Source: Sphingomonas sp. PAMC 26605 (lineage in GTDB: Bacteria > Pseudomonadota > Alphaproteobacteria > Sphingomonadales > Sphingomonadaceae). From it: DNA of 64,000 nucleotides. The notes below the pieces were generated by a model, which ran no database searches, was not told the origin of the DNA, and was given only the letters and a program-made list of their open reading frames with translations. The stretch's first letter is position 1. Each line of letters opens with the position of its first letter. Positions 49,646 to 59,670 of the stretch are shown here, one piece after another. Both the position numbers and the translations under genes were made by a program. The DNA is taken from the NCBI RefSeq assembly GCF_000241485.1, contig NZ_JH584241.1, positions 2,093,502-2,157,501 on the forward strand. The letters run 5' to 3'.

Positions 49646-51634
49646 ATGACCGTTTCACACAACGCCCCTCTGTTCATTCTGTCGTTCCGACAGCGCGACG
49701 AACTGGCGTCGCTCGCGGCGGGCGCGGGGTGGCAAGTGGTGGCCGCGCGCCGCGCGGGTGGGGCCGAGCGGCGCTTCCTGTCGAGCGGCGCCGCGGTCGC
49801 GGTGATCGATGCGCGCGGCGCGCCGGGCGACGGCATCGCCGCGGCGCGGACGATGAGCGGCGCGGTCGAAGCGAACGGCGGGGCGTTGCTCGCGCTCGTG
49901 TCGCGCGGCGAAACCGCGACGATCTCCACGCTGTACGACGCCGGGGCGACGCATTTCCTCGCGAGCCCGTTCAGCGAGGCCGAGTTCCTCCACGCGGTGC
50001 GCTTCGCCGCGCGCCATGCCGAGCGGATGGCGCGCGAATGGGCTGCCGGGCCGGTCTTCGCGCCGCTCGGCTGGCGCTACGATCTGATCAGCCGGACGCT
50101 GGTGCTGACCCCGGGGCTGGCGGCCTTGCTCGCGACCGAGGACGAACCGAGCGTCCGCACGATGCTGCGCCGGCTCGACCGCGCCGATCGCTCGGCGGCG
50201 GTGGCCGCGCTCCGTCGGATTTCCCCCGCGCGGCCGGCGACCGCCTTCGCGCATGATTCGGATCTGACAGCGGTCGGGCGCGTAGTGCAACATCTCCAGC
50301 TCGACGGCGAGGGTGCGCGGATCGATGCGGTGGTCGAGCCGCTCGGCAGCGCGCCCGAGCCTGCCGCCGAGCTGCGCGAATCGCTCGCCGGCGCGCGCGA
50401 CGCCGGCAGCGCACGGCGCTGGCTGACGCGGCGACTGGCGGACGAAGCGGGCGCGCCGCTGCATGCGATGCTGATCGCGCTCAACCGTTTCGACATGGTC
50501 AACACCGCTTATGGCCGCGCGGCTGGCGACGCCTTGCTCGGTAGCGCGCAGAAGCGGATCGACGATGTCGTGCGCGACATGCTCGGGCGCGATGCGCTGA
50601 TCGCCCGGCTGAGCGGATCGACCTTCCTCGTCGCCGCGCGCAGCATCCGGCCGCGGATCGATCTGGCGGTCGAACGGATCGCCAGCGAAATGGCGCGTCC
50701 GTTCGTCACGGGGGATTCGATCGCGGTGCTCGGTTGCCGGATCGGGCTCGCCGAGGCTTTGCCCGAGGATAGCGCGGCAAGCCTGCTGCGCCGGGTGAGC
50801 GAGGCGCTCGCCGAGGCGCGCGAGTCCGATACCGCGACGATGCGCGTCGCCGATGCCGACGGCGCCGAGGCGCCGATCGACCGGCTCGCGGTCGAGCTCA
50901 ACCACGCGCTCGAACGTGGCGAGATCGGCGTGTTGTATCAGCCGCAGGTCTCGGTCTCGACCGGTGCGATCGTCGGGGTCGAAGCGCTCGCGCGCTGGGA
51001 GCATGGTGTGCTCGGGACGCTCGGCGCCGAAACGCTGTTCGCCGCCGCCGCGCGTGCCGATCTCGAGATCGGCCTGTCGGATCATATCCAGCGGCTCGTG
51101 CTCGCCCAGACCGCGCGCTGGCCGGAGGCGCTGTCGCGGCTGCGCGTCTCGCTCAATCTGACCGCGGCGGATATCGCGCGGCCGGGCTTTGCCGACCTGT
51201 TTCTCGACCGCGTCGACGCGAGCGGCTTTCCGCGCGCGCGGCTTACGCTCGAGATCACCGAGAGCGGGCTGATCGAGGATCTCGGGATCGCGTCGAACTT
51301 GCTGTCGCTGCTGCGCGGGGCGGGGTGCCGGATCGCGATCGACGATTTCGGGACGGGCTATTCGAGCCTGGCCTATCTGAAGGCGCTCCCGCTCGATTAT
51401 CTCAAGATCGACAAGAAGCTCGCGCAGGACATCACCGGCAGCGCGCGCGATCGGATCGTGGTGCGCGGCGTGATCGACATGGCGCGCTCGCTCGGGCTGA
51501 CGGTGATCGCCGAAGGGGTCGAAACCGAAGCGCAACTCGGCGCGCTCGCGGCCGAGGGGTGCCAGATCTATCAGGGGTTCCTCTGCGCCGAACCGCTTTC
51601 GCTCGAGGCGTTGGTTGCGCTGGTCGAACGCTAG
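49646..51634 (+). CDS. EAL-domain cyclic-di-GMP phosphodiesterase with degenerate GGDEF
   Basis: A 662-residue cytoplasmic protein. Residues 1-125 look like a degenerate receiver domain; about 255-400 is a GGDEF-like domain whose active site reads RLSGSTF (about residues 320-325), so it should not make cyclic-di-GMP. The EAL domain (about 410-660) looks active: VEALARWEH, NLTAAD, EITESGL, IDDFGTGYSSL, LKIDKKLAQ and VIAEGVET. Expected activity is cyclic-di-GMP hydrolysis, perhaps GTP-regulated through the degenerate domain. No transmembrane segment. Confidence 0.88.
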   Translation: MTVSHNAPLFILSFRQRDELASLAAGAGWQVVAARRAGGAERRFLSSGAAVAVIDARGAPGDGIAAARTMSGAVEANGGALLALVSRGETATISTLYDAGATHFLASPFSEAEFLHAVRFAARHAERMAREWAAGPVFAPLGWRYDLISRTLVLTPGLAALLATEDEPSVRTMLRRLDRADRSAAVAALRRISPARPATAFAHDSDLTAVGRVVQHLQLDGEGARIDAVVEPLGSAPEPAAELRESLAGARDAGSARRWLTRRLADEAGAPLHAMLIALNRFDMVNTAYGRAAGDALLGSAQKRIDDVVRDMLGRDALIARLSGSTFLVAARSIRPRIDLAVERIASEMARPFVTGDSIAVLGCRIGLAEALPEDSAASLLRRVSEALAEARESDTATMRVADADGAEAPIDRLAVELNHALERGEIGVLYQPQVSVSTGAIVGVEALARWEHGVLGTLGAETLFAAAARADLEIGLSDHIQRLVLAQTARWPEALSRLRVSLNLTAADIARPGFADLFLDRVDASGFPRARLTLEITESGLIEDLGIASNLLSLLRGAGCRIAIDDFGTGYSSLAYLKALPLDYLKIDKKLAQDITGSARDRIVVRGVIDMARSLGLTVIAEGVETEAQLGALAAEGCQIYQGFLCAEPLSLEALVALVER

Positions 51635-51688: not shown

Positions 51689-52345
51689 CTAGTCGTCCGC
51701 CAATCCGGTTCCGAACCGCGCGCTATGCGCATCCTCGGCGCCCGCCCGCAGCAAGGCTGCCTGCGCGCGCCACTGGTCGCGCGCGATCGTGCCGACAGGC
51801 AGCGCGAGCCGCTGTTCGAGCGCCATCTCGTCTTCGTCGGAGAGCCGCTCGATATCCGCGAAGCGCATCACGCCGAGGCTGAACAGACGCGTCGCGAGCA
51901 ACCCGTCGATCCCGCGCAGCCGCGTGAGATCGTCGCGCGCGGTCCCCGCGGGCCAGGCGCGCGGGCTGGTCGGGAGCGGAGCGGGCGGGGCGACGGGAGG
52001 GGCGATTGGCGCGTCGATGGGCTCTGCCGCCGCCGGCACTGCCGGTCCGTCCGCTTCCGCGCCGACGCGCGGGGCGGTGGTGGCGCGCAGCCGCGCGATC
52101 GTCCGCTCGGCATCGGCGTGATCGGCGCGCAGCGTCGCCAACTCGTCCTTCAGGTCAGCGCCGCGCTGCTGTGCCGCGCGCAGCTTGTCTTCGGCGTCGC
52201 GGCGGTAGGCGGCGAAACTGTCGGTCTGCGCGCGGGCGCGGCGTTTGGCCCTGCTCGCGTTCGGCGCGCTCGCAAAGCCGATCAGCCAGCCGGCGAGCAG
52301 CACCACCGCCAGCACGACGAATTGTTCCGATGTCGTGAACAGCAT
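51689..52345 (-). CDS. Membrane-anchored protein with coiled coil and C-terminal HhH-like domain
   Basis: A 218-residue protein: one N-terminal transmembrane helix (FVVLAVVLLAGWLIGFA), an Ala/Arg-rich coiled coil (about 35-90), a Pro/Ala linker (PPVAPPAPLPTSP) and a C-terminal helix-hairpin-helix-like segment (LTRLRGIDGLLATRLFSLGVMRFADIERL). AGGGA precedes ATG 52345. The HhH part resembles domains that bind DNA or proteins. Downstream of tadC on the same strand by 78 bases; a link to the pilus is unproven. Confidence 0.72.
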   Translation of the reverse strand: MLFTTSEQFVVLAVVLLAGWLIGFASAPNASRAKRRARAQTDSFAAYRRDAEDKLRAAQQRGADLKDELATLRADHADAERTIARLRATTAPRVGAEADGPAVPAAAEPIDAPIAPPVAPPAPLPTSPRAWPAGTARDDLTRLRGIDGLLATRLFSLGVMRFADIERLSDEDEMALEQRLALPVGTIARDQWRAQAALLRAGAEDAHSARFGTGLADD

Positions 52346-52423
52346 GGCCTTATCCCTCGACAAAACGTCGAAGAATAAAATGCCGTCAACCGCGCCCCGC
52401 GGCAAGGGCGCGCGAATCGCCGC

Positions 52424-53422
52424 TCAATGCTTGAACGCGTCGGAGATCGAACAGGCCGCCGGGCCGAGAATGACGACAAACAGCGTCGGCAGGATGAACA
52501 GGATCAGCGGGATCGTCATGATCGCGGGGAGCCGCGCGGCCTTTTCCTCGGCGCGCATCATGCGTTCGTTGCGGAATTCGCCCGACAGTACGCGCAAAGC
52601 GCTCGCGAGCGGTGTGCCGTATTTCTCGGTCTGAATCATCGTCGTGACGACGCCCTTGACCGCGTCGAGCTTGACCCGCTGCGCGAGGTTCTCGAACGCC
52701 TGGCGGCGCTCCGACAGGAAGCCGAGCTCGATCGCGGTGAGCGTGAACTCGTCGCCCAGCTCGGGATAGGCGCGGCCGAGCTCGCGTGCCACGCGGCCGA
52801 ACGCCGCATCGACAGTCAGTCCCGCTTCGGCACAGATGACGAGCAGATCGAGCGCGTCGGGCAGCCCCTTCTGGATCGCGAGCGAACGCTTCGCGATGAT
52901 GTTGTTGAGATAGAGGTCGGGCGCCTTGTACGACAGCACGAAGTTCGCCGCGACCAGGCCGTACGCCTTCCACGGCGTCCAGTCGGCGAACATCGTCGTG
53001 CCGTAGACGACATAGACGCCGAACACGCCCCAGGTCAGCGGCAGCATCAGTCGCCCGAAGATGACCGCGACGGCATATTCCTTCGAGCGGATCCCGGCTT
53101 GCATCAGCTTGACCTGCGCCGCCTTGACCTGGCTGTCCTGCAGCACCTTGAGGTTCGACAGCAGCGCCTTGATCCGGTCGGTCGTCTCGTTCTTGGTGAC
53201 GAGCTTGGCGCGACGCTTGGTCGAGGCGGTGATGCCCGCCTTCAATTGCTCGCGCCGATCGTTGAGCGCCTTGACGCGCTTGGTCATCGGGTCGCGCGCG
53301 GTGGTCGCGGCATAGATCGCGAGCAGCACCATGAAGGCGGCGACCCCGGCGAGCAGCGTCGCGACGGTGTAGACGTTGACGCCAAGGATGACGGGGCCGG
53401 CGGGGTGATCGATCGGGGTCAT
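52424..53422 (-). CDS. tadC: Tad pilus assembly inner-membrane protein TadC
   Basis: A 332-residue type II secretion F-domain protein, a platform component of the Tad pilus. N-terminal helix (VATLLAGVAAFMVLLAIYAA), membrane pair near residues 120-160, the F-domain with GLPDALDLLVICAEAGLTVDAAF and ELGDEFTLTAIELGFL, and a C-terminal helix pair. The adjacent tadB is upstream with a 4-base gap. Confidence 0.92.
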   Translation of the reverse strand: MTPIDHPAGPVILGVNVYTVATLLAGVAAFMVLLAIYAATTARDPMTKRVKALNDRREQLKAGITASTKRRAKLVTKNETTDRIKALLSNLKVLQDSQVKAAQVKLMQAGIRSKEYAVAVIFGRLMLPLTWGVFGVYVVYGTTMFADWTPWKAYGLVAANFVLSYKAPDLYLNNIIAKRSLAIQKGLPDALDLLVICAEAGLTVDAAFGRVARELGRAYPELGDEFTLTAIELGFLSERRQAFENLAQRVKLDAVKGVVTTMIQTEKYGTPLASALRVLSGEFRNERMMRAEEKAARLPAIMTIPLILFILPTLFVVILGPAACSISDAFKH

Positions 53423-53426
53423 CGCA

Positions 53427-54401
53427 TCAGATCTCGAAATTGACCATGCGGCTCATGATGAACGCGCCGATCCCCATCCAGATCAGCCCGCCGCCGCCCG
53501 CGACCATCAGCCGCTGATCGATGAAGAAGTTCTGCATGTAGCTGCCGTTGATCATCCAGATCATCCCGAACACGATGAACGGCAGCGACCCGACGATATA
53601 CGCCGAGGCCTTGGATTCGGACGACATCGCCTTGATCTTGAGCTTCATCTGGCCGCGCATGCGCAGCACGTTGGCGAGGTTGGCGAGCGTTTCGGCAAGG
53701 TTGCCGCCGGTCTCGCGCTGGATCGCGATGGTGATGACGAAGAACTGGAATTCGGGCGTGCCGAGCCGGTCGGCGGTTTCCTGAAGGGCTGCGTCCATCG
53801 TCCGGCCGATCTTCATCTTGTCGGTGATGTTCTTGAACTCGACGCCGACCGGGCCGTCGACCTCGGCGCCGACGACGGCGATCGTCTCGGTGATCGGGAG
53901 CCCTGAGCGCAGGCCGCGCACGAGCAGTTCGATCGCGTCGGGAAACTTGGCGGTGAACTTGGCGATGCGGCGCTTGATGAAGAAGCCGACCGCCATGTGC
54001 GGGATGCCCGCCCCGACGACCACGCCGAGCAACAGGCCGAGCAGTACCGGTAAGCCGAGGAACGACAGCACGAGCGTCACGCCGAGCGCGATGCCGAGCG
54101 TCGCGAGCCCGTATTGCCCGACCGTCCAGCTCTTGCCGGTCATCGCCAGCCGCTTCTTGAGCAGCGCCGGGTTCGGCAGAAAGCGCGCCGCGGCGACATC
54201 CATCCGGGTGTTCTGCATCGTCGCGATGCGCCTCAGCTGGGCATCGGACAGCGTGTTCGCCGACTCGCTGTGGCGCGCGCGCAAGGCGGCCACGCGGCGC
54301 GTGCGGGCGCGTTCGGGCGAGGGGCCGGCAAGGGCGAACGCGACCAGCAGCAGCATGATCAGCGCGCCGCCCCCCAGCGACAGAATGGGCATCAGGTCCA
54401 T
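53427..54401 (-). CDS. tadB: Tad pilus assembly inner-membrane protein TadB
   Basis: A 324-residue F-domain platform protein, partner of TadC. N-terminal helix (MPILSLGGGALIMLLLVAFALA), the domain block FPDAIELLVRGLRSGLPITETI and the conserved ETGGNLAETLANLANVLR, and C-terminal helices. In most Tad clusters the ATPase gene cpaF/tadA lies immediately upstream of tadB; here only 74 bases separate tadB from cpaE. Confidence 0.93.
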   Translation of the reverse strand: MDLMPILSLGGGALIMLLLVAFALAGPSPERARTRRVAALRARHSESANTLSDAQLRRIATMQNTRMDVAAARFLPNPALLKKRLAMTGKSWTVGQYGLATLGIALGVTLVLSFLGLPVLLGLLLGVVVGAGIPHMAVGFFIKRRIAKFTAKFPDAIELLVRGLRSGLPITETIAVVGAEVDGPVGVEFKNITDKMKIGRTMDAALQETADRLGTPEFQFFVITIAIQRETGGNLAETLANLANVLRMRGQMKLKIKAMSSESKASAYIVGSLPFIVFGMIWMINGSYMQNFFIDQRLMVAGGGGLIWMGIGAFIMSRMVNFEI

Positions 54402-54475
54402 GAGCCTATCAAGCGCTCCGCTTCGTTACGACGGCGTTTACGGCGCCGAAAAAACCGTTTGTTCGCGCAGGACCG

Positions 54476-55762
54476 TCAGCCCTTCTTCTTGCGCGAAACC
54501 ATCGCCTTGAAATCGAATTTGCCGACCAGCGACGGTCCTTTCGCGCCGGCCTTCTTCTTGCCCACGCTGTCGATCGGCTCGGCCGAATCACCGACTGCCA
54601 TCAAATTGGTGGCGAGATCGATGATCGGCAGGATCGTCTTCGAGCTCTTGCCGGCTTCGGCGAAAGGCTTGCCGAGCTTGGCCGATTGCGCCGCGAGCTT
54701 CTGGTCGAACACGACGCTGAAATCGATCTTGCGCTCGATCGAGCCCTCGAAGTCCTTGCGGCTGATCTCGAGCTGCGCGGCGGGCTGGACGCGGTTGGCG
54801 ACGACCGCGACCTGCGTCTGCGGCGCGTTCGACTTCATCCACGAGAGCAATCGAATCGTGTCGCGTGCGGCGGCGAGCGTCAGCTCGGTGACGATCACCG
54901 CCACCTGGATGTCCGCGATCAGGTGCGGATGCTGGACCAGCATGCCGCGCGGCAGATCGACCACGGTGCATTCGAACGCCGCGCGCATCTCTTCCTGAAG
55001 CTGGTAGAAGGCCGATCCGTCGGTCATCAGCGGCGAATTGATCGGCGCCTCGGCCGACAGCACCGACAGCCGCTCGCTCGATTTGACCATCGCGCGCTCG
55101 ATGAACAGCCCGTCGATCCGGCTCGGGTTCTCGATCGCGTCGGTCAGGCCACGCCCCGGCTCGAGATCGAGCGACAGCGCGCCCGTGCCGAAATGCACGT
55201 CGAGATCGAGCAGGGCGGTGGTACGCGCGCCCTTTTCGCTCAGCACCCAGGCGACCGAGGTGGCGAGGCTCGACGCGCCGACCCCACCGCGTGCGCCGAT
55301 GAAGGCGGTCGAGATGTGCGGCCGCTCGGTCGATGCCTCGACCGCCTTGGGCGCGTTGAGGATCGCCTGCGCGTTGGTGAAGGCCTCGCGCAGCATGTCG
55401 GGGTTGAGCGGCTTGAGCAGGTAATCCTGGATGCCGCTGACCACGAGGTCGCGGTACAGCCGGACGTCGTTGACCTGGCCCGCCGCGATCACGACCGTGC
55501 CCGGCTCGCACACTTCGGCGAGCGCGTTGATGTCGTTGAGCGGATCGCCGCTTTCCGACAGATCGACGAACAGGATCTGCGGCGAGGCCGAGACCGACAG
55601 CGACTGGACGGCGTTGCGCAGGCCCCCCTTGTTCACCTTTTCGGGCGCCCAGCCCATTTCGAGCGCGATCGGGCGCAGCGTCTCCGCCGTGGTCTCGTCG
55701 CAGACATAGGCCGAAAAGGGTTCGCGAAGGCCGGTTCGGCCTGGAGAAAACGGTGCGTTCAT
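54476..55762 (-). CDS. cpaE: Tad pilus localisation ATPase CpaE/TadZ
   Basis: A 428-residue MinD/ParA-like protein positioning the Tad machine. An N-terminal receiver-like domain (about 20-140: VCDETTAETLRPIALEMGW, DYLLKPLNPDM) precedes an atypical P-loop (GARGGVGASSLATSVAW) that lacks the usual second Lys, as is common in TadZ, then LLDLDVHFGTGALSLDLEP. It overlaps cpaD's stop by one base. Its stop is 74 bases from the tadB start with no room for cpaF. Confidence 0.93.
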   Translation of the reverse strand: MNAPFSPGRTGLREPFSAYVCDETTAETLRPIALEMGWAPEKVNKGGLRNAVQSLSVSASPQILFVDLSESGDPLNDINALAEVCEPGTVVIAAGQVNDVRLYRDLVVSGIQDYLLKPLNPDMLREAFTNAQAILNAPKAVEASTERPHISTAFIGARGGVGASSLATSVAWVLSEKGARTTALLDLDVHFGTGALSLDLEPGRGLTDAIENPSRIDGLFIERAMVKSSERLSVLSAEAPINSPLMTDGSAFYQLQEEMRAAFECTVVDLPRGMLVQHPHLIADIQVAVIVTELTLAAARDTIRLLSWMKSNAPQTQVAVVANRVQPAAQLEISRKDFEGSIERKIDFSVVFDQKLAAQSAKLGKPFAEAGKSSKTILPIIDLATNLMAVGDSAEPIDSVGKKKAGAKGPSLVGKFDFKAMVSRKKKG

Positions 55763-56403
55763 TATTTGCCCCCGGCGCTTTCGGTCTTGATGGCGGACCC
55801 GCCCGATCCGCTCGGCGCGGCCCGGCGGAAGCTGTCGATCGCCTTGGCCGAGGCAAGCTGATCGACGACGCCCGACCCGGCCTGACCAAGCACGAGGTCC
55901 GCCGGATTGGCGATCATCGCAGCGAGCGTCGCGTTGCTCGAGCAGCCATAGTTGGACGAGGTGTTGGACTCGAAATCGGTCGAGCTGTTGCGGCTGTAAT
56001 CGGGGCATCCGGGGACGCGCGCCTTCATGCGGGTGACGACGACCCGGATCGTGCCCGCAGCGATCGGCGCGTTGGTCACCGGCGCGTCGTCGGAGACGAG
56101 CAGCCCGTAATGCGCAACCTGGCGCGCGACGGCATCATGGACCCCGGCGCCATACGGATTGGGATCATCGATCGCGACACGATCGCCATAGCCGAGCCGC
56201 AGCGACGTCATCCAGCCGGCAAGGCGTTGTTCCTCGCCCGGCGCGAGGTCGCCGCCGCTGGTCGCGACGTCGAGCGCGTAATCGGTCCGACTGACGACCG
56301 GTTGGTGGACCGATTCGAGCCCGCGATTCTGCGTTCCCGCGCACGCCGGGGCGAGCAGGACGGGGGCGAGGGCGGTTGCGATGCGGAGCGTGCGCTTGAA
56401 CAT
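55762..56403 (-). CDS. cpaD: Tad pilus lipoprotein CpaD
   Basis: A 213-residue lipoprotein with signal LLAPACAGTQN (Cys near 22) and the CpaD domain (DYALDVATSGGDLAPGEEQRLAGW, YGLLVSDDAPV, the paired Cys in VPGCPDYS and NYGCSSNATLAAMIANP). It is thought to help place the secretin. It lies 20 bases after cpaC and overlaps cpaE. Confidence 0.93.
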   Translation of the reverse strand: MFKRTLRIATALAPVLLAPACAGTQNRGLESVHQPVVSRTDYALDVATSGGDLAPGEEQRLAGWMTSLRLGYGDRVAIDDPNPYGAGVHDAVARQVAHYGLLVSDDAPVTNAPIAAGTIRVVVTRMKARVPGCPDYSRNSSTDFESNTSSNYGCSSNATLAAMIANPADLVLGQAGSGVVDQLASAKAIDSFRRAAPSGSGGSAIKTESAGGK

Positions 56404-56423: not shown

Positions 56424-58121
56424 TTAATTGCTGAAGCCGGGGGCCGCGGTGGCGCCCTTCTTGGGCGCGCGGGCGGGCGGAAGCGGCGCGGGGATCGGAT
56501 CGTTGCGCGTCCGGTCGCCCGGCGTCGGCGGCGCGCGACCGGGTGCGACCGGCAGGCCGCTATCGAACCCCTGCGGCAGCGCCTCGACCGGCGCCATCGT
56601 CGGCTTGGGGCGTTCGCCGCCAGTGGTGCCGCCGCCGAGCTGGCCCATGATGACGCGACCGAGATCGGTCGGCGCCTTGTAGCCATCGGTCGGCAGGACG
56701 ATGTCGGCCGCGTTGACCGGCTTGACCAGATACGGCGTGATGACGATCACGAGTTCGGTTTCGTTGCGCTGAAAGGCGTTCGAGCGGAACAGCGCGCCGA
56801 CGACCGGCACGTCGCCGAGCGCCGGCGCCTTGTCGATCGAGTTGTTGTGGTTGTTCGACAACAGCCCTGCGATCATCATGCTCTGGCCCGAGCCGAGCTC
56901 GACCGTCGTCTCGGCGCGCCGCGTGGTCAGCGCCGGAATGCTGATGCCCTGCAGCGTCACCGAGCCTTGCGACGACAGCTGCGATACTTCTGGGCGGACG
57001 TGGAGCGAGATGCGCCCGTCGGCGAGCACCGTCGGCGTATAGGACAGGCTCACGCCATATTGCTTATATTCGACCGAAACCGCGCCCAGCCCTTGCGAGA
57101 TCGGGATCGGGAATTCGCCGCCGGCGAGGAACGAGCCGGTCTCACCCGAAATGACGGTGATGTTGGGGTTGGCGAGGGTCGAGACCTGGCCGTCGCGCTC
57201 GCCCAGATCGAGCGACGCCAGCAGGTCCATGCCGAATGCGTGGCCGGCAAGGCCGAGCGCGGTGCCCATGCCCGTCGTTCCGGGGAAGCCGTATTGTGTC
57301 GCGCCGGGCGCGAGCCCGCTGGAATTGATGCTCCCGGGAAGCTGGCCCGGCGTGACGGGCACCGTGGTGATCGTCCCCGTGCGCCCCTGAGCGATGTTGA
57401 ACAGCGCGCCGCTGCCGATCTGTCGGTTGGCAAGGTTGACGCCGATGTTCTTGACAAAGCTGCGGCTGACCTCGGCGACGCGAACCTGGAGGTTGACTTG
57501 CAGCGGTGTCGCGGCGCGCAGCCGGTTGATGACGCCGATCTTGAGCAGGGCGTCGGGGCCCGGCGCCACGCCGGGGTTGAGCAGGGCAGTGACGAGCCGC
57601 TGCGCCGCGGCGCTGTCTTCGGGGGAGACGACGGTGCCGGTCAACACCGCGATCTGCCCGACCGTGGTGACGCGGATGTCACTGTCGGGCATGGCGAGCT
57701 TCACCATCCGGTCGATCGAGGTCAGATTCTGGCTGACGCGGATGTTCGCCGAGTAGATCACCGCGCCGCTCGCGCTCGTCGCGAAGATCGTCGATTCGCC
57801 GAATTCCTTGCCGAACAGATGGATCTGGTGCGGGTTGCTGACATAGACGTCGGCGACGCTCGAGTTCGAGATCCACACGTCGCTGACGCTGGCGGGGAGG
57901 TTGATGAGCTCGCCCTGGCCGGTCGAGAGCACGACCTCGGTCGTCGGCCGCACGGTGCCGGCGGGCGCCGCGCCGATATGCGTGACGGCATGACTGGCCG
58001 CGCGCGGCGCCTTGCGGACCGGCTTGGCACCCGCGGCCAGCGCCGCCATCGGCGTGCTCGCGATCAGCGCCGTCAGGACCGTCGCCGAGACGGCGCGATG
58101 CAGAAAGCTGTGGTTGCGCAT
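56424..58121 (-). CDS. cpaC: Tad pilus secretin CpaC/RcpA
   Basis: A 565-residue outer-membrane secretin. Signal peptide to about residue 30 (AALAAG). An N-terminal pilus-binding domain (LSTGQGELINLPASVSDVWI), a BON-like segment (VTTVGQIAVLTGTVVSPEDS) and the secretin core with VEYKQYGVSLSYTPTVL, the VELGSGQSMMIAGLLSNN loop and a Pro-rich C-terminus. It is the outer-membrane channel of the pilus. One-base overlap with cpaB. Confidence 0.95.
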   Translation of the reverse strand: MRNHSFLHRAVSATVLTALIASTPMAALAAGAKPVRKAPRAASHAVTHIGAAPAGTVRPTTEVVLSTGQGELINLPASVSDVWISNSSVADVYVSNPHQIHLFGKEFGESTIFATSASGAVIYSANIRVSQNLTSIDRMVKLAMPDSDIRVTTVGQIAVLTGTVVSPEDSAAAQRLVTALLNPGVAPGPDALLKIGVINRLRAATPLQVNLQVRVAEVSRSFVKNIGVNLANRQIGSGALFNIAQGRTGTITTVPVTPGQLPGSINSSGLAPGATQYGFPGTTGMGTALGLAGHAFGMDLLASLDLGERDGQVSTLANPNITVISGETGSFLAGGEFPIPISQGLGAVSVEYKQYGVSLSYTPTVLADGRISLHVRPEVSQLSSQGSVTLQGISIPALTTRRAETTVELGSGQSMMIAGLLSNNHNNSIDKAPALGDVPVVGALFRSNAFQRNETELVIVITPYLVKPVNAADIVLPTDGYKAPTDLGRVIMGQLGGGTTGGERPKPTMAPVEALPQGFDSGLPVAPGRAPPTPGDRTRNDPIPAPLPPARAPKKGATAAPGFSN

Positions 58122-59152
58122 TACTTCTTCCCTTCGACGGCGACGTCGGTCACCGCATTTCCGCGAACGATGTGGACCATCGGCCCAATGCGTAGCGCGC
58201 CCCCACCGGGGAAACCGCTGCTCGGTGCAGGCGCTGCCGCACCGCCTGCCGGGGCGACCTCGGCCGCCTTGCCGGGCACCGTGCTGCGCTGGAAGCGCGA
58301 GACGTCGGCGCCGGTCGCCAGCGTGCCGTTGCCAGCCGAGGGCGAGCTCGCGATCCGCGTCAGCATCGCCTTTTCGGCCTTGGGATCCTCGGGCATCTTG
58401 ACGTTGCCGCTGGCGATCGCCTGTTCGAGATCGCTATTGTTGTCGGCGATCGAGCGCAGCGACAAAGAGAGCGAGCCGAGCGTCTGCGCGACCGCGATCT
58501 GCTCGGCGATCTTGGGAGTCGCTTCGATCGTCACGTTGGAGAAGGTGCGGACGACTGCCTTGCCATCCTCGCCGACGCCATTGTCGGTGCGCTGGTCGGT
58601 GGCGAGCACGCGCAGGTTGCGCATGATCGTTTCGGCCGCCTTGAGCGGGGGGCCGTCGCCGCCGCCGGCAACCGTCTGCGTCAGGATCAGGTCGATCCGG
58701 TCGCCCGGGAAGACGAAGCCCGCGACGCTCGTCTGCGTCTGGACGGGAACCGTGACCGCGCGCATGCCCGGCCCGAGCGCCGCCGCGAGGAAGCCGCGGT
58801 CGCCCGGCTTGACCAGCGCGCCTTGCGTGAGCGGCTGTCCGGCGGTGATCGCGTTGCGCACCACGGTGCCGATCAGCGTGCGCTGGTCGAAGCCGCCCTT
58901 CTTGATGAAATAGGCGTTCTCGACGAGCTCCTTCGGCCAGGGCTGATACTTTAGCGCGGTCGCATCGAGGATCGTGCCGACCGGCAGCGCCTTGGTCGCG
59001 ACGAGCACTTCGGGCCCGTCGATCACCGGCGCGGCGACCACGGCACTGGCCTGTGGCGCCGAACTGCCGAGGATCAGCGACCGCGCCATGAACGCGGTGA
59101 TCGCAGCGACGATCAGCGCTCCCACCAGCAATAGGACCTTGCGACTATCCAT
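58121..59152 (-). CDS. cpaB: Tad pilus assembly protein CpaB/RcpC
   Basis: A 343-residue protein with a single N-terminal membrane helix (KVLLLVGALIVAAITAFMA) and an SAF domain (VLVATKALPVGTILDATALKY, AITAGQPLTQGALVKPGDRGF). It is a periplasmic partner of the secretin. The C-terminus is Pro/Gly/Ala-rich. It starts 35 bases after cpaA. Confidence 0.93.
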   Translation of the reverse strand: MDSRKVLLLVGALIVAAITAFMARSLILGSSAPQASAVVAAPVIDGPEVLVATKALPVGTILDATALKYQPWPKELVENAYFIKKGGFDQRTLIGTVVRNAITAGQPLTQGALVKPGDRGFLAAALGPGMRAVTVPVQTQTSVAGFVFPGDRIDLILTQTVAGGGDGPPLKAAETIMRNLRVLATDQRTDNGVGEDGKAVVRTFSNVTIEATPKIAEQIAVAQTLGSLSLSLRSIADNNSDLEQAIASGNVKMPEDPKAEKAMLTRIASSPSAGNGTLATGADVSRFQRSTVPGKAAEVAPAGGAAAPAPSSGFPGGGALRIGPMVHIVRGNAVTDVAVEGKK

Positions 59153-59187: not shown

Positions 59188-59670
59188 TTAAGCAATCACA
59201 CCGAAGTGGTTAAAAACCGGTTCACGAAGCGCGAACAGGGCGGCGAGTGCGATCGCGACGCCGTAGGGAATCTCGATTTGCGTGGTGCGTCGCCGCAGCC
59301 GATGCTCGATCAACAGCGCGACCGTCAGCGCACCGCCGACCAGCGACATCACGATCAGCATCCACACCAGCGGCGCGAGCGGCAGCCACAAAGCGAGCGC
59401 GCCGATCATCTTGACGTCGCCGCCGCCCATCCAGCCGAACTGAAACGCCGCGACGAACAGCACGAAGACGACCGTGGCCAATCCGAGCTGGGCGGCCATG
59501 TCGGGCCAGACCGCGAGCCCGCACGCCCACCAATACGCCGGTGCGAGCAGCGCTATCGCGGCATTTTTCCAATTGGCGATCTCGCGCGTCCGCGCGTCCT
59601 GGACGCCGGCGGACACCAGCAGCAGTGCCAGCAGGATCAGCAGCACGATCGAAAGAGAGTCCCCACGCAT
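59188..59670 (-). CDS. cpaA: Tad prepilin peptidase CpaA/TadV
   Basis: A 160-residue inner-membrane aspartic peptidase that processes pilins. It has about five or six helices. The two catalytic aspartates are in VQDARTREIANW and the GGGD of WMGGGDVKMIGAL. Length is typical for the short TadV type. First gene of the minus-strand Tad operon; no flp pilin gene is in the window. It is divergent from an alpha/beta-hydrolase with 48 bases between. Confidence 0.93.
   Translation of the reverse strand: MRGDSLSIVLLILLALLLVSAGVQDARTREIANWKNAAIALLAPAYWWACGLAVWPDMAAQLGLATVVFVLFVAAFQFGWMGGGDVKMIGALALWLPLAPLVWMLIVMSLVGGALTVALLIEHRLRRRTTQIEIPYGVAIALAALFALREPVFNHFGVIA

Follow-up and report, generated by a model that had tools for sequence, protein, structure and literature searches.

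Where is the motor of a Tad pilus whose core gene cluster lacks cpaF? The question arises in a 64,000-nucleotide stretch of DNA from Sphingomonas sp. PAMC 26605 (contig NZ_JH584241.1, positions 2,093,502 to 2,157,501), the whole of which was analysed here and is called the window. A first-pass annotation had reported a run of Tad genes without the assembly ATPase and had offered three explanations: that cpaF lies elsewhere, that it has been deleted, or that another ATPase serves. Our analysis supports a combination of the three. The cluster no longer holds the canonical cpaF, the CpaF encoded elsewhere is a paralog of separate descent, and it is likely that, with the canonical gene lost, this orphan paralog took over the motor role of a dispersed, working Tad (Flp, type IVc) system.

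The Tad core cluster, the distant CpaF and their distribution

Pfam searches confirmed the gene order first read from the sequence, cpaA, cpaB, cpaC, cpaD, cpaE, tadB, tadC, which runs down the minus strand from 59670 to 52424. The prepilin peptidase gene cpaA (59188..59670; PF01478, Peptidase_A24, E 9.8e-13) is followed by cpaB, or rcpC (58121..59152; PF16976, E 3.1e-30, and PF08666, SAF), the secretin gene cpaC (56424..58121; PF00263, E 1.9e-43, and PF13629) and cpaD (55762..56403; PF09476, E 1e-38). The assignment of cpaE, or tadZ (54476..55762), draws on cluster position, the ORF and its translation, and a ParA-type match (E 1.5e-4) under the Pfam cut-off. Its longest ORF extends to 56008, and the likelier start is an in-frame ATG at 55762 that overlaps the cpaD stop. 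Two platform proteins are encoded by tadB (53427..54401; PF00482, T2SSF, E 1.3e-23) and tadC (52424..53422; PF00482, T2SSF, E 6.6e-18). CpaA, CpaB, CpaC, CpaE (weak by Pfam), TadB and TadC are all present, and by Pfam and ORF analysis the core reading frames are intact. A 238-aa ORF 3' of tadC on the same strand (51689..52405) has coding-like composition, no Pfam match and no match in the mapped Tad loci of other families (tblastn, 1e-5); it is possibly an accessory tad gene. A gene for a GGDEF-EAL protein adjoins the cluster on the opposite strand (49646-51634).

In other families, cpaF lies between cpaE and tadB. Here the end of cpaE at 54476 is separated from the start of tadB at 54401 by a 74-bp junction (54402..54475, minus strand), which holds no ORF, as the first-pass annotation had said, and no CpaF remnant. 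The spacing between cpaE and tadB is 4-88 bp in all 30 genomes of the family examined, and a sensitive search of these 30 gaps gave no credible match to a CpaF remnant.

A genome-wide search with PF00437 found five genes, none of them in the window, where the first-pass annotation had seen no secretion ATPase either. One of the five encodes the genome's single CpaF. This protein, P0001 (508 aa), is encoded 1.64 Mb away at G000:C1:509176-510699 (linear distance to tadB on the contig 1,636,232 bp), rather than in the usual, non-defining place between cpaE and tadB. Its PF00437 (T2SSE) domain covers residues 158-434 (E 4.9e-62), and its closest solved relatives are CpaF chains (E 3e-140), with the next family at E 7e-42; P0001 is thus closer to CpaF than to VirB11, FlaI or GspE. 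Among 80 named loci, the nearest CpaF proteins are those of S. pruni (86% identity) and S. changbaiensis (85%). Aligned to Caulobacter crescentus CpaF, in which platform contacts and hinge residues are essential (PMC11300603), P0001 keeps the Walker A motif, the Central-Loop E-G-x-G, the Loop-8 Asp and two hinge glycines (G-x-G), and has Gln for Ser at one Central Loop position.

Of the other four PF00437 genes, one is GspE-like and adjoins two GspF genes, and the remaining three are shorter, VirB11-like frames located on contigs C2, C4 and C5. The genome holds four T2SSF domains, those of tadB and tadC in the window and two GspF-like ones at C1:3.33 Mb. Only one TadB/TadC pair is present, which rules out a second complete Tad system as a source of the motor. 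The first-pass annotation had also suspected a split system, with Flp pilin and TadE outside the window, and so it proved: three Flp pilins are encoded at C1:3.457 Mb and one at C1:1.554 Mb, and two TadE-like matches, one above and one below the curated cut-off, lie at C1:1.387 Mb. With cpaF, pilins and TadE-like genes all at other loci, this genome does not have the usual single-locus Tad organisation.

The loss of cpaF from the cluster turned out not to be peculiar to one genome. We searched 147 genomes of the order, 86 of them in the host's family, Sphingomonadaceae, with CpaF and TadB. A distant CpaF at 77% identity or more (hereafter displaced CpaF) is present in 82 of the 86, and type-A TadB in the same 82; neither is found in G089, G099, G111 and G133. 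This co-occurrence, perfect in the sample, gives a Fisher p of 4.7e-7, uncorrected for kinship, and the four co-losses may represent about three events (genera g13, g18 and g28). Where the two genes lie on one contig (54 of 82 genomes), 29 kb to 2.29 Mb separate them. Since so many relatives carry cpaF at a distant site, the arrangement characterises the lineage as a whole and does not reflect a fault in a single genome. The displaced CpaF of one of the 82, G093, appears as two overlapping matches, as if frame-broken (L098:12109-13618).

Outside the family, 54 genomes of the order have both genes, and in 52 of these only 21-152 bp (between match ends) separate cpaF from tadB; the same holds for G045. 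In the remaining two, G014 and G052, the genes sit at the ends of separate contigs. At the thresholds used, neither gene was found in seven genomes of other families. The canonical order cpaE-cpaF-tadB-tadC was found at all 15 mapped canonical loci of the order and at each of 20 loci selected across the remainder of the class (out of 81 positive genomes outside the family). Some genomes of the family (G133, G131, G108, G132 and G099) have a second and divergent Tad-like cluster (L099, L138-L141), in which a separate CpaF (~50-57% identity to P0001) lies between CpaE-like and TadB-like genes. Two of these, G099 and G133, are among the genomes without displaced CpaF and type-A TadB, and their divergent clusters have CpaF in place; G089 has CpaF and TadB matches of the divergent level only.

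The pilins are scattered as well. In all 14 core family genomes checked, the 50 kb on either side of tadB are free of Flp pilins, and in eight of nine genomes of other families a pilin lies within ~7 kb (the exception, G006, at 29 kb). The pilins of G045 are on contigs other than that of tadB, with no pilin near the cluster and the canonical cpaF in place.

Descent of the displaced CpaF

Other families of the order carry orphan CpaF genes, which are sister lineages of the displaced CpaF. Eight genomes encode both an orphan and a canonical CpaF (G002, G016, G019, G020, G022, G024, G053 and G045). The mapped orphan loci have no TadB or TadC of their own, so any platform driven by an orphan is probably the only one in its genome. 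In one orphan outside the family (L143), the Loop-8 Asp is replaced by Asn, and the orphan of G007 appears as two overlapping matches, as if frame-broken (L164:1746-3070).

The orphan cpaF is directly followed by a short ORF (about 81-88 aa) that matches DUF6812 (PF20660) and overlaps the cpaF stop by four bases in L078, L143, L144 and L146; examples of ~81 aa lie at L078:11585-11830, L143:7387-7632 and eight further loci. A six-protein DUF6812 profile matched 12 of the 147 genomes of the order, and the match abuts CpaF in ten; the weak matches in G011 and G032 are not beside CpaF. There is no match in the window's genome or in 84 of the 85 other genomes of the family, the one exception being G045. 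Across the wider class, DUF6812 matched 41 of 387 genomes, and at none of 30 loci examined from these 41 was it beside CpaF. In one alphaproteobacterium (L275), three matches lie within 1.6 kb (G185:C3:50522-52089), not beside CpaF. We found no paper naming DUF6812 in the open-access literature searched. The orphans thus coexist with a canonical CpaF and keep DUF6812, whereas the displaced cpaF has no DUF6812 gene 3' of it.

In a tree of 100 CpaF proteins, 51 displaced copies and the orphans of G045, G002, G014, G016, G019, G020, G022, G024 and G053 form one group (SH-aLRT 99), and G045's own canonical CpaF falls outside it, with the canonical copies. In a 53-row tree, the branch that separates displaced and orphan copies from canonical ones has support of 100/100. 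All eight orphans in this tree lie with the displaced copies across that branch, although the root as drawn places two of them, G014 and G016, on the side of the canonical copies. The orphans make up a grade in which branches are long and the branching order is not firm. Three duplicate loci and the frame-broken G093 copy were left out of both trees, L142 and nine divergent type-B or outgroup rows were left out of the 53-row tree, and the L126 protein was trimmed to its last 600 residues.

These trees bear on the simplest account, in which the canonical cpaF itself left the cluster for the atp locus and diverged after the move. Such a move would fit the mutual exclusion of displaced and canonical CpaF in the family, to which G045 is the exception, and the ~60% identity between the displaced protein and canonical copies. 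It is nonetheless improbable, as the displaced clade groups with orphans that coexist with a canonical CpaF, and a clade of displaced and canonical copies without the orphans is rejected (p-AU 1.2e-54 on the 53-row tree, 7.9e-4 on a 410-residue core); a single clade of all CpaF proteins of the order is not rejected (p-AU 0.41). Several residues that distinguish the two lineages point the same way: among them, E155 and C374 are fixed in all 14 displaced and all 8 orphan rows, and the canonical majority differs at both (26 and 28 of 29).

We therefore favour displacement of the canonical motor by a paralog. The displaced CpaF would descend from an orphan once alone with its DUF6812 gene, which coexisted with a canonical gene in the cpaE-cpaF-tadB arrangement. 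In an ancestor of the family, after the G045 lineage had split off, the canonical cpaF would have been cleanly lost and the orphan would have taken over TadB and TadC; its DUF6812 partner would have been lost, and cpaF would have ended up beside the atp genes, where many genera retained it. G045 carries an orphan cpaF with its DUF6812 gene and a canonical cpaF inside its Tad cluster. It is one metagenome-assembled genome whose place in the family rests on a database label, and its TadB, at 51% identity, is as diverged as the TadB of other families. A reasonable order of disassembly would be that the pilins moved out first, and that the canonical cpaF was then lost with the orphan takeover and the loss of DUF6812.

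In type IVa pili, PilT and PilU act beside PilB. By analogy, in Sphingomonadales that had both genes a Tad system with two motors may have preceded the takeover, a canonical CpaF and a DUF6812-controlled orphan CpaF acting on one TadB/TadC platform, with Sphingomonadaceae keeping the former second motor alone; we raise this tentatively, as a conceivable but doubtful stage. If true, such a stage, with the exchange of motors after it, would be new, CpaF of Tad pili having been described as a single bifunctional motor (PMC12019362).

Role and neighbourhood of the displaced cpaF

We infer that the motor of the window's Tad core is the CpaF encoded 1.64 Mb away, 3' of atpC, and that it drives the TadB/TadC platform. 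It is very unlikely that this protein serves some other role while the Tad core is motorless, decaying or run by another ATPase such as GspE. The position of the displaced cpaF, beside ATP synthase genes and far from the Tad genes, would suit such a role, and the genome does encode a GspE-like and three VirB11-like ATPases. However, CpaF and platform co-occur strictly across 86 of 86 genomes of the family, the core Tad frames are intact, and the remaining ATPases have a platform of their own or sit on other contigs.

Regulation also argues against another role. Anoxia lowers the expression of Sphingopyxis granuli cpaABCDEtadBC, Flp, tadGE1E2, pilZ and a cpaF with a gene number of its own, in every case 4- to 13-fold (PMC6472365, in the part of the paper available), a co-repression that supports the distant cpaF as part of the Tad regulon. 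An upstream element common to cpaF and the flp genes is consistent with this. The element TTAGGAAATTnTCAAAGTTTCCnnnTTATTCACCA lies 5' of the displaced cpaF in 44 of 48 distinct upstream regions, the same regions from which its model was built, and the first 16 bases of TTAGGAAATTnTCAAAGTTTCCnnnTTATTCACCA are found again 5' of flp pilin genes, about -95 to -120 from the start. In an exploratory comparison, with a threshold chosen once the scores were known, this 16-base box reached a score of >=10 at 9 of 10 flp loci and in 1 of 160 other upstream regions. Where pilin starts were in tandem, the best of up to two was used; L297 was unparsed and stands outside the ten. Eight cpaF rows had been removed by eye from 168 controls, and the 160 left may still include cpaF rows with lower scores. 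The box was not found at the second pilin locus of the window's genome (L009, score 2.1), nor was the full element found 5' of cpaA at ten of ten family loci (best <=2.2; one just above the 99% null value of -0.22). Judging from these sequences, the common element may keep the dispersed parts in step. The shared box reads TTAR-N7-TCAA (for example at L006 about 10760, L291 and L299) and resembles a degenerate CtrA box, mostly with two or more mismatches from TTAA-N7-TTAA. CtrA boxes (TTAA-N7-TTAA, <=1 mismatch) occur 5' of 4 of 59 displaced cpaF genes, against 2% of background windows, which is a small difference.

In the window's genome, cpaF follows atpH-A-G-D-(89-aa ORF)-C on the same strand and begins 153 bp 3' of atpC. 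Within the family, cpaF is within 5 kb of atpD in 35 and within 25 kb in 49 of 84 tabulated genomes, and it is downstream of atpD on the same strand in 47 of these 49. Of 82 loci showing both genes (some loci share a genome), 80 have cpaF 82-7218 bp 3' of atpC in the same orientation, and atp genes directly precede cpaF in Sphingopyxis, Novosphingobium, Croceicoccus, Sphingorhabdus, Sphingobium sp. SYK-6 and Sphingomonas loci. The 89-aa ORF between atpD and atpC (L006:11218-11487) has a relative at the same site in L192 and a CCDC90-like Pfam match under the cut-off. On the 3' side of cpaF in the window's genome are a ParD antitoxin gene (PF03693) and, by eye, a ParE-like ORF (L006:8009-8853).

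Such a neighbourhood, with cpaF within 25 kb 3' of atpD on the same strand in 47 of 84 genomes and after atpC in 80 of 82 loci, could suggest that cpaF is functionally part of the ATP synthase operon and couples pilus work to the energy supply. We regard this as highly improbable: a 14-pair terminator-like hairpin with a T-rich tail lies 3' of atpC in the window's genome, cpaF has its own conserved upstream element, and the linkage is loose, being inverted in G110 and G126 and missing in many genera, including several Erythrobacter, Qipengyuania and Altererythrobacter loci with no atp gene in the stretch examined. Because so strong a terminator-like hairpin separates atpC from cpaF, the displaced cpaF is probably made from its own promoter; a simple scan upstream of cpaF found none of the sigma-70 type. 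Lastly, an artefact of assembly or annotation between cpaE and tadB is vanishingly unlikely: the assembly is in 23 contigs, but the assembly gap that had been named as a possible refutation is itself refuted, the junction lying inside a 3.96-Mb contig and being equally short in all 30 family genomes.

The split Tad system beside known systems

Tad systems are almost exclusively encoded at single loci and scattered ones are very rare, according to the available text of PMC6668835, and the family-wide split layout is a notable exception to this rule. In the open-access literature searched, subscription papers excluded, we found no account of a paralog taking over the Tad motor in sphingomonads. 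On the reading favoured here, what appeared to be a missing gene would become a dated evolutionary event, in which the essential motor of a nanomachine was swapped for a paralog throughout a family, with at least one genome holding both. The swap would serve as a natural experiment on the features that a Tad motor needs to retain if it is to function with its platform. It also draws attention to DUF6812 as a small uncharacterised partner of the older orphan motors. In practice, methods that detect Tad systems by locus will wrongly take sphingomonads to be motorless.

The split layout itself has been in print since 2019 (PMC6472365). Sphingopyxis granuli TFA has the same division, with cpaABCDEtadBC, Flp, tadGE1E2 and cpaF at separate gene numbers and co-regulated; the layout is given there in a table, and the part of the paper available does not discuss the missing cpaF or its descent. 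Canonical Tad loci in other families of the order and in the class share the order cpaA-B-C-D-E, tadB-tadC with the window's cluster and, unlike it, keep cpaF between cpaE and tadB. A further close counterpart is the Tad pilus of C. crescentus (PMC11300603, PMC12019362, as far as their available text goes), which has the same core genes and whose CpaF is the nearest solved relative of P0001. In contrast to that system, cpaF, the pilins and the tadE-like genes here lie outside the core cluster, and the motor would come from an orphan paralog.
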